From Planctomycetota bacterium (GTDB taxonomy: Bacteria > Planctomycetota > Planctomycetia > Planctomycetales > Planctomycetaceae): a stretch of DNA of 64,000 bases. The stretch covers positions 1 to 64,000 of the forward strand of contig VGZH01000001.1 of assembly GCA_016872645.1 (NCBI GenBank). Reading direction: 5' to 3'. Position 1 is the stretch's first letter. Every line of letters begins with the position of its first letter. The notes under the pieces were generated by a model, which was not told where the DNA came from, searched no databases, and saw nothing but the letters and a program-made list of their open reading frames with translations. Positions 21,982-26,031 of the stretch are shown here, in pieces. Position numbers and translations under genes: made by a program.

Positions 21982-22263
21982 GTGTGCTCCGAGCATGTCA
22001 AAGTCTGTTCTCAGAGTAGCCGTTCTTTCGGAGAAGACGAGCCGATCGGCATCAAGCCATCTTGACGGTCGCACGCTTGACTTCTAGCATCCTCCTTCCA
22101 GTCTTGGGTTTCGAGGGGCCTTTTCTTCACGATGCCGTCTGAGCATCAAGCTTGCTGCCAACTGTCCGCAACCGGAACACAGCACATTCGGCAGAGGCTG
22201 TTCTCCCCTCCCGCTCGGGATCGACTCGATCACGATCACTTAGGCTCACGGGATGTGACGCCG

Positions 22264-23214
22264 ATGCTTGTCCAGCAACAAGACTCAGCGCTCGTCGTTC
22301 ACACCCCTGCCAAGCTCAATTTGTTTCTGGAGATTCTGGGGAAACGGCCCGACGGTTTCCACGAGCTGGAAACGCTCATGGTCACCATTGGCCTGTACGA
22401 CACATTGCGGTTCACGGAGGACGACTCTTCTGCTTCGCCGTCGCGATCTGCGTCGGCAACGTCTGCGGCGGATCTGCCGTCCGATATTCACCTGTCATGC
22501 CAGTGGACTGGGTCTCCGGAGTTTTCTCCTGCACCAATCCCAACGGGCCGAGACAATTTGGTGGTTCGGGCAGCGGAGTTGTTGCGGGAGGTCACAGGGA
22601 CTCGGCGCGGAGCGTCGATCGAATTGACCAAACGCATTCCGATGGCCGCGGGGTTGGCAGGAGGATCGAGCGACTGTGCCGCGACGCTGTTTGCCTTGAA
22701 CCGATTGTGGAAGTTGGGTCTGCCCGACCAGCGATTGCTGGAGCTGGCAGCTCGGCTGGGGAGTGACATTGCATTTTTTCTGACGCGGACTTCGGCCGCC
22801 GTCTGTCGCGGCCGGGGCGAAATCATCGAACCAGTGGCCGCACCCATGAGATTGCACTTCGTGATCGCCAAACCCGCTAGCGGCCTTTCGACCGCCGCCG
22901 TGTTCCGGCAGTGTCGTCCCGCCGCGTCACCTCGCTCGGCTCAACCGCTGGTCGATTCGCTGTGTGCCGGACGATTTTCGATCGCCGCTCGGCAACTGCA
23001 CAACGCTCTGCAACCGCCGGCCGAGCAACTCAACGCCGACGTCGTTCGTTTACGTCGCGCGTTCTCCCGACTGCCATTTCTGGGACACCAGATGAGCGGC
23101 AGCGGCACTTCGTATTTCGGACTTTGTTCGCAGCTGGATCAGGCGAGGGCACTGGCGGCCCAAGTCCGCTCGGCCGGTTGCGATGATGTGTTTGTGGCCT
23201 CGACTCAACCCTGA
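22264..23214 (+). CDS. ispE: 4-diphosphocytidyl-2-C-methyl-D-erythritol kinase
   Basis: This GHMP kinase of the MEP isoprenoid pathway phosphorylates CDP-ME. The start is set at ATG 22264, giving MLVQQQDSALVVHTPAKLNL; an open frame runs back to 22132 but lacks family similarity. Motif 1 is AKLNLFLEILGKRPDGFHEL with the catalytic Lys. The ATP loop is PMAAGLAGGSSDCAATLFALN at about residues 125-145, with the catalytic Asp in GGSSD. The C-terminal MSGSGTSYFGL is motif 3. Length 316 is normal. The SpoVG-like gene follows 38 bp downstream, echoing the ispE-spoVG neighbourhood known from Bacillus. Confidence 0.95.
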   Translation: MLVQQQDSALVVHTPAKLNLFLEILGKRPDGFHELETLMVTIGLYDTLRFTEDDSSASPSRSASATSAADLPSDIHLSCQWTGSPEFSPAPIPTGRDNLVVRAAELLREVTGTRRGASIELTKRIPMAAGLAGGSSDCAATLFALNRLWKLGLPDQRLLELAARLGSDIAFFLTRTSAAVCRGRGEIIEPVAAPMRLHFVIAKPASGLSTAAVFRQCRPAASPRSAQPLVDSLCAGRFSIAARQLHNALQPPAEQLNADVVRLRRAFSRLPFLGHQMSGSGTSYFGLCSQLDQARALAAQVRSAGCDDVFVASTQP

Positions 23215-23252
23215 TTTGTGAGCATGGTTTTCATCAGTGAAGGAGTGCTGCC

Positions 23253-23876
23253 GTGGAAATCACCGAAGTGCGCGTCAAATTGATGAGTGACCCCAACGAC
23301 CGCCTGATGGGCTTCTGCTCGATCACGCTCGACAGCAGCTTTGTCATCCGGGATCTGAAGATCATCCAAGGAGGCAAAGGCTGTTTCGTGGCGATGCCCA
23401 GCCGCCGCCTGATGGACCGCTGCTCGCGCTGTCACACCAAGAACCACCTCCGCTCACGCTTCTGTAACCACTGCGGCGGTCCACTCCGCGAAGACCGCTC
23501 CGCCAAAGACCTGGACGGCCGAGCCAAGCTCTACGCCGACATCGCGCACCCGATTAACTGCGACTGCCGCGAAAAGATCCAAATCAAAGTCATGGAAGCC
23601 TTCGAGCAAGAGAAAATCCTGGCTCAACAAGAGGGCTACATTTGCCGCTACGACGACTACGGCGAAGACGACTACGACGACGAACCAATCGCCGCGACGT
23701 TCGCTCGCCGCGAAGCTCCCAGCCGTGAGGGGACAATCCGTTTCGACCAACCGCAGCACAGCGTCGGTCCCACGGAACCTCACGTCTTGAAGATGCCGCA
23801 GTCCGAACCGGCGAAAGCATCAGTTCGCCTGAGCCAGGACAACGACGGCGATTCGTTCGGGTCGGGCATCGATTGA
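23253..23876 (+). CDS. SpoVG family protein with inserted zinc ribbon
   Basis: Residues 1-50 ([20 protein letters not shown] to [12 protein letters not shown]) match the first half of SpoVG. Residues 93-115 ([20 protein letters not shown]) match its second half, where ordinary SpoVG has E-F-R-D-I-A-H-P-I-N. Between the halves sits an insert of about 40 residues holding [19 protein letters not shown], a C-x2-C-x11-C-x2-C zinc ribbon. A long acidic, disordered tail follows ([12 protein letters not shown] near 129-141). SpoVG is a small RNA- and DNA-binding regulator, so the ribbon may change nucleic acid or protein contacts. The gene starts 38 bp after ispE. Ordinary SpoVG is about 85-100 residues; this one has 207. 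Confidence 0.85.
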
Positions 23877-23922
23877 TGTCATGCCCGCGCGGTCAGCACT
23901 ATTGCAGCGGCAAAAGGGAACC

Positions 23923-23961
23923 GAAGTCGTGAGACTTCAGGCCGGAGCTCTCACGAGTTCC
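23923..23961. terminator. Paired hairpins between convergent genes
   Basis: GAAGTC-GTGA-GACTTC (23923-23938) is followed by GGAGCTC-TCAC-GAGTTCC (23944-23961). The loops GTGA and TCAC are complementary and could kiss. There is no T-tract, so termination is only a guess based on the position between the SpoVG-like gene and rtcB. Confidence 0.4.
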
Positions 23962-23984
23962 GCTGTAATTGGTTCGAATCTGCT

Positions 23985-25502
23985 CTAATCGTCCGCTTCT
24001 GACGAGTCCTTGATCACGAACCGAGCTTTCAGTTTGGCGACTGTACGAGCCAGGCCGGCCTGCTCGACGGATCGCAAGACCTCGCCGAAGTTCTTGTACG
24101 CTGCGGGAGCTTCGTCTTTCGGATACAGGCGGCAGTTGCTGAGGATGTCGTGCGTGGCGAGTTCGTGGTCGATCTCGCGCTGGTCGAGTTCGCGAATCGC
24201 CCGCTTGCGTCCGAGTGCTCGGCCAGCACCGTGGTTGACGCTGTAGCAGCTCTTGGCGGCTCCTGGTTCAGCGACCATCACCACACTGCCATCGCGCGGG
24301 TTGCCCGGAAGCAGAATCGGGTGCCCGGTCGCTTCGTATTTTGTTCCTTTCAGACCGTGATGCCCCGCCGGGAATGCTCGCGTTGCCCCTTTGCGATGCA
24401 CCCAAGCGACTTCGTCATTCACGATCTCACGCCGTGCGATGTTGTGGCTGATGAAGTACACCAGCTCTCCCTTCACGCTGCCGAACACCTCCTGAAAGGC
24501 ATCCAGAACGAGCGCGTTGATCAGCAGATGATTGACCGTCGCAAAGTTCGCGCCCAAGGCCATGTCATCCAAGTACGCATCGGCCTCGGCGGTTCCCAGC
24601 GGAGCATACACCAGCTCACGATCGCCTCCCGGCAGCGGGATGTCCCACTGCTTGAATTTCTCTTGAATGGCCTTGAACTGCGCCGTCGCCAACCGATGTC
24701 CCCAGCCGCGCGAACCGCAGTGCGATAAGAATGCCACGCAGCCGTGCTTGAGACCGAAGACGTCTGCGACCGACGACGGGCTCTCCTGCCGCCCCTCCAC
24801 CAGTTCCACCGCTTCACACTCGCCGAAGTGGTTCCCACCCCCGTACGAGCCAAGCTGTTCGACGTTCTTGACGAACCGCAGACCCTCGTCGCTGGCGAGA
24901 TCGCCCACCAACCGATCGACTCGTTTCTCCAGCGAGCCGTTCGATCCATCGTGGCCGAGATGAAACGAGTCTTCGCAGCACTCGACCCAATGCGGAGGAA
25001 TGCCCAGCGCCTCGCACACCGCGCGCGACGCCCCTTCGATCACGATCTTTCGGCCCAGCGAACCGCTGACTCGCCGAGATTTCTTCACCGACCGTTGGCC
25101 GCGACCTGCTCCCGTCGGAATCCGCTCGACAATCGCGTCGATGAGTGCCCTCCGCACACGCTGTTCGGCAACCTGCTCGATCGGCAAGTCCATCTGCAAC
25201 AAGCTCATCGAGCACTTGATGTCGACTCCAACTGGTCCCGGATAAATGTGCGTCGGCGAAACCATCACGCAGCCCACCGGAGCACCGTAACCCCGATGCG
25301 CATCCGGGTTCAGAACCAGTTCAGTGACCCCCGGTGCCCCGCGCGAATTCAACGCCTGCTCGATGCACCCCGCATCAAACCCATTTCGAATCGTTTCGGT
25401 CCCAATGACCGTGATCGGCTTCGTGGTCGAATTTCGAGCCGGCAAGATCGCCGTTGCGCTGCCGGTCGCGATCATGTTGTGAGCTGCCTTCAATTCGTCC
25501 AT
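23985..25502 (-). CDS. rtcB: RtcB family RNA-splicing ligase
   Basis: The start is ATG 25502 (MDELKAAHNMIATGSATAIL); the open frame further upstream is not RtcB-like. The 505-residue protein carries the family metal and guanylylation motifs: NPDAHRGYGAPVGCV, GPVGVDIKCS (Asp and Cys ligands), GGGNHFGECEAVEL, SHCGSRGWGHRLA, ATGHPILLPGNPRDGS, and VNHGAGRALGR with the guanylylated His. RtcB joins 2',3'-cyclic phosphate (or 3'-phosphate) and 5'-hydroxyl RNA ends using GTP and Mn. DIKCS differs from the common DIGCG, and HCGSRG from HSGSRG, so this is a divergent subgroup. No archease or rtcA gene is nearby. A hydrolase pseudogene lies just upstream. Confidence 0.92.
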   Translation of the reverse strand: MDELKAAHNMIATGSATAILPARNSTTKPITVIGTETIRNGFDAGCIEQALNSRGAPGVTELVLNPDAHRGYGAPVGCVMVSPTHIYPGPVGVDIKCSMSLLQMDLPIEQVAEQRVRRALIDAIVERIPTGAGRGQRSVKKSRRVSGSLGRKIVIEGASRAVCEALGIPPHWVECCEDSFHLGHDGSNGSLEKRVDRLVGDLASDEGLRFVKNVEQLGSYGGGNHFGECEAVELVEGRQESPSSVADVFGLKHGCVAFLSHCGSRGWGHRLATAQFKAIQEKFKQWDIPLPGGDRELVYAPLGTAEADAYLDDMALGANFATVNHLLINALVLDAFQEVFGSVKGELVYFISHNIARREIVNDEVAWVHRKGATRAFPAGHHGLKGTKYEATGHPILLPGNPRDGSVVMVAEPGAAKSCYSVNHGAGRALGRKRAIRELDQREIDHELATHDILSNCRLYPKDEAPAAYKNFGEVLRSVEQAGLARTVAKLKARFVIKDSSEADD

Positions 25503-25543
25503 CACGATTTCTTTCTTTGAACTGCGGACCATGCGGTAAAGGC

Positions 25544-26031
25544 TTATTTCGCGGCACCGGGTTTGGCGGAATTCTCCTGAATGAACTCCCGCGTTCGAGC
25601 AATGACTTCGTCGTTGATACCCACGTGGCCCATTTCTGGGTAATGGTGAACTTTGTGCTGTGCCTCTGCTTTTTGCAGCACCTCGATCATCGTCAGAGCG
25701 TTCCCGATCGGCACCGACTTGTCGTTGCCGGAACGCAGAATCTGTAATGGCTTCGACGTCTTGGCGACATGCTTCGTCGGTGAAGCATACGCTCGAGCTT
25801 CGGCCATATCGACTCCCGGCGGAGTCCACAGTGCTCCCCAATCAAGAGCCACCAAATCGTAACCTGCTGCCACACCGATCGCGGCACGAAAGTCGTTGCT
25901 CTCCTTCTCCCATCCACTTCGCGAACGACAACCTTCGGTACGGCCTTCTCGTCCCCCAAGCCGACTTCACATTCGCTGAATTTGTTCGTGACGAATCCGG
26001 CCACCAACAATCCACAAGCCACCCACGCCAT
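25544..26031 (-). pseudogene. Broken secreted alpha/beta hydrolase
   Basis: From 26031 the minus strand reads MAWVACGLLVAGFVTNKFSE, a signal-like start, then VPKVVVREVDG. Near 25905 the homologous frame changes: the continuation is EKESNDFRAAIGVAAGYDLV in another frame, then GALWTPPGVDMAEARAYASP and a good hydrolase C-terminus with the acid residue in ILRSGNDKSVP and the histidine in YPEMGHVGI. The nucleophile half, with G-x-S-x-G, is missing altogether. So there are at least a frameshift and a large internal loss. No active product is expected. Confidence 0.65.

Follow-up and report, generated by a model that had tools for sequence, protein, structure and literature searches.

The name SpoVG derives from sporulation, and to our knowledge Bacillus-type spores are made by neither Planctomycetes nor Omnitrophota. 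Studies of other bacteria have mapped how SpoVG proteins contact DNA: according to the accessible part of PMC3688583, binding requires an Arg/Lys doublet (K50-R51 in S. aureus, R53-R54 in B. burgdorferi), specificity is set by a six-residue stretch of a helix (residues 66-71 and 69-74, respectively), and the S. aureus protein behaves as a tetramer. For L. monocytogenes SpoVG, the available portion of PMC4959528 gives lower apparent Kd values for RNAs (129 and 273 nM) than for single-stranded DNA (1.2 uM). Phage-borne spoVG genes are already known (PMC8940887, accessible part; see also PMC10294663). The closest precedent for the protein described here is that of Gupta, Bhandari and Naushad (2012), who reported an insert of 32-36 amino acids in SpoVG as a signature indel of Planctomycetes (PMC3444138); in the portion of that text available, the insert is claimed to be exclusive to Planctomycetes and zinc is not mentioned. 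Here, we analyzed a spoVG gene in a 64,000-nucleotide stretch of a Planctomycetota genome (contig VGZH01000001.1, positions 1 to 64,000; hereafter, the window).

A predicted zinc ribbon within the SpoVG fold

The features of the locus are collected in Table 1. The encoded protein matches the SpoVG family across residues 1-119 (PF04026; 87.4 bits against a cut-off of 29.6, E 7.1e-25), a match to the zinc ribbon family DZR is nested at residues 53-75 (PF12773; E 4.1e-6, exactly at the 27.3-bit cut-off), and SpoVG structures in the PDB align to it in two pieces, residues 1-55 and 94-120. The earlier note, made from the DNA letters, had proposed a zinc ribbon inserted in SpoVG, and the nested match and the two-piece alignment bear this out: judged from its sequence, a zinc ribbon sits inside the SpoVG fold. 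The spacing given there, C-x2-C-x11-C-x2-C, has one residue too many in the middle, as the cysteines read C57-x2-C60-x10-C71-x2-C74. The basic doublet that marks the SpoVG family after MPS is present (R51-R52), and the 36 extra residues enter after MPSRR, giving a loop after MPS of 45 residues versus 9 in the SpoVG of Bacillus, Paenibacillus and Agathobacter.

Table 1. Features of the ribbon-bearing spoVG gene and its upstream neighbor, in window coordinates
Feature	Position	Strand	Basis or remark
ispE (4-diphosphocytidyl-2-C-methyl-D-erythritol kinase), directly 5' of spoVG	22132..23214	+	TIGR00154
Candidate ribosome-binding site AAGGAG	23240..23245	+	7 nt 5' of GTG; read from sequence
spoVG with predicted ribbon	23253..23876	+	207 aa plus stop, GTG start
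SpoVG fold, first half, residues 1-52	23253..23408	+	PF04026, PDB SpoVG matches; pLDDT 90-95 to residue 50
R51-R52, equivalent of S. aureus K50-R51	23403..23408	+	Alignment; PMC3688583 (accessible part)
Insert-containing loop, residues 53-95	23409..23537	+	Loop length 45 vs 9
Predicted zinc ribbon C57-x2-C60-x3-N64-x6-C71-x2-C74	23421..23474	+	DZR match, alignment; pLDDT 83-95
SpoVG fold, second half, residues 96-124 (DIAHPIN and helix)	23538..23624	+	PDB matches, model
Residues 103-108 (CDCREK), equivalent of S. aureus specificity stretch SDMRQE	23559..23576	+	Alignment; PMC3688583 (accessible part)
Acidic tail, low model confidence, residues 125-207	23625..23873	+	pLDDT 54-71 from residue 131; pN/pS 0.33
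Conserved C-terminal tip FGSGI, residues 202-206	23856..23870	+	Motif in 104/193 planctomycete tails

The insert has the two CxxC knuckles and the ribbon fold of a four-cysteine zinc ribbon, and its cysteines, which presumably hold Zn(II), are invariant across a 36-row alignment; all 36 members of profile A1 show both the SpoVG match and the DZR match. A double zinc ribbon, as the DZR name would imply, was considered and rejected: there is a single four-cysteine set, and the best stretch covers positions 22-45 of the 45 in the profile. The pattern C..C...N......C..C had no occurrence in 1.37 million residues of other open reading frames from the same loci. Because the protein reached 83.1 bits, in two stretches, against the cut-off of 108 for the NCBIfam equivalog PRK13259 (septation regulator SpoVG), it is filed under PF04026 and not under PRK13259.

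The earlier note had also suggested structure prediction of the split domain, and an AlphaFold2 model built on a 94-row alignment returned an intact SpoVG fold with a confident ribbon. Mean pLDDT was 80.3, with ten-residue blocks at 90-95 up to residue 50, 83, 91 and 95 for the ribbon blocks (residues 51-80), 81 and then 66 (residues 91-100) for the joining loop, 93-98 for the helix (residues 101-130) and 54-71 for the tail. The ten best PDB chains in a Foldseek search were all SpoVG (E 2.1e-7 to 9.9e-6), and VIA-align placed B. subtilis SpoVG (2ia9_F) at Z 13.3 with 86 aligned of 90 residues and an rmsd of 2.7; CDI immunity proteins (Z 5.6-6.2) and RNA polymerase domains (Z 3-5) followed, in a range that the tool calls common. 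For the insert alone, the nearest shapes were RanBP2-type fingers and ribosomal eL40, none of them significant (best E ~0.5).

Conservation of the insert within Planctomycetes

An open homologous frame without stops was found in all 59 relatives searched, from 44 genera, and a SpoVG match in 145 of 246 genomes taken from the phylum. The matches listed span ~336-378 bases per 82 profile positions, corresponding to ~36 extra residues, and the exceptions among them are three rows from two genomes (G069, G141). At the level of individual loci, the ribbon was present in 118 of the 120 planctomycete loci examined; one of the other two (L118) covers a distant paralogue in G069 that lacks the insert and was missed by the profile, and the second (L119) has a frame broken inside the ribbon, probably an assembly error. 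The first cysteine pair varies in two loci (C-x1-C in L102, C-x4-C in L113). Of 117 loci measured, a set that leaves out the ribbon-bearing locus L055, 96 have a 45-residue loop after MPS, and its length ranges from 40 to 53 overall.

Across the 66 pairs formed by 12 loci of one genus, the insert had a pN/pS of 0.13, compared with 0.06 and 0.14 for the halves of the core and 0.33 for the tail; the insert is under purifying selection. The earlier note had named a frame error or restriction to this strain as outcomes that would undo its reading, and both are ruled out by the open frames in relatives, the near-universal presence among planctomycete loci and this selection. Among 184 canonical planctomycete ribbons, the residues between the cysteines are also retained (K63 in 98%, N64 in 99%, H65 in 74%, L66 in 77%, R67 in 85% and N72 in 89%), and the ribbon with its flanks carries a mean net charge of +5.3 in 191 sequences of the planctomycete set and +5.2 in 24 from Omnitrophota.

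Distribution beyond Planctomycetes

A scan of named genomes with profile A1 yielded 575 relatives, and the ribbon was present in 80 of the best 80, a set biased toward ribbon bearers since the query and patterns came from such proteins. Among these 80 were records titled Omnitrophica or Omnitrophota (L188, L195, L198), Desantisbacteria (L151) and Vermiphilus sp. (L177), the last being the one record title on which the name of this third group rests. Whole phyla were also searched with PF04026. In Omnitrophota (the phylum of L188), 160 of 193 genomes had a match, at least 133 of the 193 with one of 320 bases or more and 9 with short ones only, among the matches listed, outside which a further 18 matching genomes fall. 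All four Desantisbacteria genomes (the phylum of L151) had a long match, as did 27 of the 28 matching genomes among 35 in the third group (the phylum of L177), the remaining match being split over contigs. The long matches whose sequences were read carried the same ribbon in the same place. The taxonomic survey suggested in the earlier note thus finds the insert planctomycete-wide and, beyond that phylum, in Omnitrophota, Desantisbacteria and the third group, and its restriction to Planctomycetes was rejected. Verrucomicrobiota, Chlamydiota, Spirochaetota and other phyla lie outside the survey.

Controls consisted of SpoVG in 10 phage and 9 plasmid records, from Firmicutes, Fusobacterium and gut phages. 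Control matches that cover most of the query measured 231-249 bases, without the insert, and one covers only 44%; in the five controls whose full sequences were read, the loop is 9 residues long. Seven Omnitrophota loci are insertless at the ispE locus (L237, L238, L239, L240, L251, L256, L260), and another (L248, 1489-1818) encodes a SpoVG whose insert site has a 20-residue loop without cysteines, which could be the remnant of a lost ribbon. Eleven second, divergent insertless SpoVGs from Omnitrophota genomes were read as well (L292-L302), and most of these genomes have the ribbon form besides. Planctomycete-type SpoVG was seen in records titled Actinomycetes (L150) and Bacteroidales (L155); the former title is wrong, because its genome falls in the phylum of the window.

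At the R67 position, threonine stands in 69% of ribbons in the third group (the phylum of G302), and arginine in 56% in Omnitrophota. Given this replacement of R67 in the third group, any role shared between the phyla would be general and not base-specific, and a shared base-reading role is doubtful.

Linkage to ispE and origin of the ribbon

The ispE assignment is well supported (TIGR00154 on 22261-23214; 212 bits against a cut-off of 138.7), and the true start of this gene may lie later than that in Table 1. On the other side, an RtcB RNA ligase gene (PF01139, E 1.7e-100; 23985-25841, minus strand) lies tail to tail with spoVG. A promoter scan of positions 22100-24050 found none. The order in B. 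subtilis is ispE-purR-ridA-spoVG-glmU-prs; the earlier note's statement that the ispE-spoVG order is that of Bacillus holds in that ispE comes before spoVG, but only loosely, because purR and ridA intervene there. An ispE gene on the same strand precedes spoVG in 94 of 119 planctomycete loci and 76 of 80 named loci; the counts are 32 of 32 for Omnitrophota, 4 of 4 for Desantisbacteria, 15 of 16 for the third group and 0 of 23 for viral contigs. Downstream, no family occurred in more than 8 of the 70 first open reading frames scanned (of 125), the commonest being TPP enzymes (8) and NTP_transferase (5), which leaves ispE as the sole stable neighbor. Given this linkage and the B. subtilis order, the ribbon protein occupies a seemingly ancestral site.

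A careful tree was computed from 115 rows and 83 core columns, with the insert and viral rows excluded (viral rows were included in a first quick tree only), and many of its forks are open. Firmicutes and Fusobacterium stand apart from all others (96/81), and the Omnitrophota rows without the insert fall within the ribbon-bearing part, with 3 changes needed; monophyly of the ribbon rows was not rejected (AU p 0.16). The simplest reading is one early gain of the ribbon followed by losses in Omnitrophota, and it is a reading and not a result because of the open forks and the unrejected one-clade tree.

Ribbon-bearing SpoVG on viral contigs

The ribbon form was found on ten viral contigs. On one of these (L205, 3001-3429), it lies directly downstream of portal (E 2.1e-54) and head-morphogenesis (E 3.1e-16) genes, so that structural genes stand beside a regulator gene, and a matching region is present in L206. 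A large terminase gene is found near the ribbon SpoVG of L210. The ribbon SpoVG of L207, on a viral contig of 298 kb, has just upstream of it the genes for two small proteins that contain CxxC pairs (1960-2912).

The acidic tail and its tip

The tail is fast-evolving, modeled with low confidence and, as the earlier note had it, acidic, with 18 D/E versus 8 K/R in the last 84 residues. A tail end of the form F[GSAN]xG[ILVMF] occurs in 104 of 193 planctomycete tails (61/120 and 43/73) against 0.15 expected from shuffled tails, a contrast that is somewhat overstated because the motif was found by eye in the same sequences, and related sequences are counted many times. The same tip was found in 0 of 25 Omnitrophota tails, in 0 of 4 and 0 of 16 in two further sets and in 0 of 10 viral tails. 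Sharing of the tip with other proteins of this genome was also considered and rejected, as a genome-wide search for the variant FGxG[ILVM]x-stop gave 9 sites versus 8 in reversed controls, spoVG being the sole long intact frame that ends in it. In one planctomycete locus (L031), the SpoVG tail continues into a long pure glutamate stretch. The C-terminus of SSB is an acidic arm with a conserved tip, and this analogy suggests that the SpoVG tail may act in docking.

Proposed function of the ribbon

We hold it slightly more probable than its opposite that the window protein is a SpoVG-family nucleic-acid binder in which a zinc ribbon adds contact and the tail serves as an arm. The ribbon would replace the short loop between the doublet-bearing strand and the C-terminal helix, and Zn(II) on C57, C60, C71 and C74 would fold it so that it lies next to both the doublet and the helix that sets specificity. 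K63, R67 and neighboring conserved basic residues would then add nucleic-acid contact, most likely with RNA. A flexible arm for docking or auto-inhibition would be formed by the acidic tail and its FGxGI-type tip. In the chain, the ribbon falls exactly between R51-R52 and residues 103-108, the equivalents of the elements mapped in S. aureus (PMC3688583, accessible part). An added nucleic-acid contact is favored by this location between mapped DNA contacts, together with the conserved basic residues and the preference of Listeria SpoVG for RNA, and we give about an even chance, by analogy, to the ribbon enlarging the nucleic-acid-binding face. Nucleic-acid binding by the window protein and the roles of its ribbon and tail are thus what we infer, and a regulator role would be inherited from studies of other SpoVGs.

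A different reading, which we regard as somewhat unlikely, is that the ribbon makes no nucleic-acid contact and is a module for protein docking or oligomerization, within a SpoVG dimer or tetramer or with a partner such as the ribosome, RNA polymerase or an RNase. Similar small ribbons bind proteins too, the nearest non-SpoVG folds including RanBP2 fingers with Ran and the TAB2 finger with ubiquitin, the tail tip resembles a docking peptide, and the tetramer reported for S. aureus (PMC3688583, accessible part) would suit such a role; however, the insert has a basic net charge in four lineages and lies between the two elements mapped as contacting DNA. The four cysteines in a functional loop, with an extra loop cysteine in a few members, could also make the ribbon a zinc or redox switch, in which loss or oxidation of the site alters SpoVG activity. 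The site is, however, near-invariant and compact, like structural ribbons, and alike across lineages of very different habitats (as inferred from record titles), leaving this little chance. Slightly less probable still is a neutral relic, a lineage marker without a function of its own. A signature indel was published without a function, at least in the accessible part of PMC3444138, some Omnitrophota lack the ribbon at the ispE locus and the L248 loop has no cysteines, but the low pN/pS of the insert within a genus and the near-complete retention of K63-N64 across the phylum both speak against a relic.

Returning to the ribbon as an added nucleic-acid contact, a broader scenario can be offered as a conjecture that is, on the whole, unlikely to hold in full. 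In Planctomycetota, Omnitrophota and allied phyla, ribbon SpoVG would be an RNA-binding global regulator of ancient origin, linked to ispE, whose ribbon, gained a single time before these phyla diverged, widens the RNA-binding face; in planctomycetes, an acidic disordered tail with an FGxGI docking peptide would have joined it as an arm like that of SSB, and tailed phages may tap the same circuit. Planctomycetes and Omnitrophota keep SpoVG in a modified form outside the spore formers, and four cysteines, two basic residues and one tail tip offer a handle on its role outside Firmicutes. In addition, the wider spread corrects the use of the insert as a Planctomycetes-only marker, and the insert could be used as a character common to Planctomycetota, Omnitrophota and Desantisbacteria.

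Comparison with known systems

Among the papers listed in searches of the open-licence PMC literature, none was seen to describe SpoVG as bearing a zinc ribbon; the single paper matching both terms, PMC10611510, has tcaA as its subject, judged by its title. The earlier note had not seen this architecture described. The insert itself was already published (PMC3444138), and its zinc-ribbon identity and wider spread are additions; both appear to be new to the literature, as does its location between two DNA-contact sites. The indel of Gupta and colleagues and the window insert share protein, length (+36 residues, within the size reported) and, as far as the available text tells, place; their indel is presented there without zinc and for Planctomycetes only, whereas here it is a predicted zinc ribbon found in further phyla too.

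With the SpoVG family (PF04026; B. subtilis, Staphylococcus; 2ia9, 2i9z, 2i9x), the window protein shares the fold, MPS[RK][RK], D-I-A-H-P, the C-terminal helix and the ispE neighborhood, and it differs from ordinary SpoVG in the 36-residue zinc-ribbon insert and the long acidic tail with a conserved tip; solved SpoVG chains have 87-105 residues, compared with its 207. RanBP2-type fingers (ZRANB2 ZF2, 3g9y), whose RNA-binding pattern was taken for comparison from the accessible part of PMC6384913, share C-x2-C-x3-N-x6-C-x2-C, an Arg at the R19 position and an Asn after the third Cys, and the 3g9y shape fits the insert with an rmsd of 0.7 over 22 columns (E 2.9). The window ribbon differs in having no Trp before the first Cys, His for Trp 17 and Ser/Ala for R20; GGU binding of the RanBP2 type was considered and rejected, as the spacing, one Arg and the Asn fit the pattern in that source and the Trp and second Arg are missing. 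DZR, Zn_Ribbon_1 and ribosomal eL40 are the best sequence matches of the insert, from which it differs in being a single ribbon nested in another fold, neither terminal nor in tandem.
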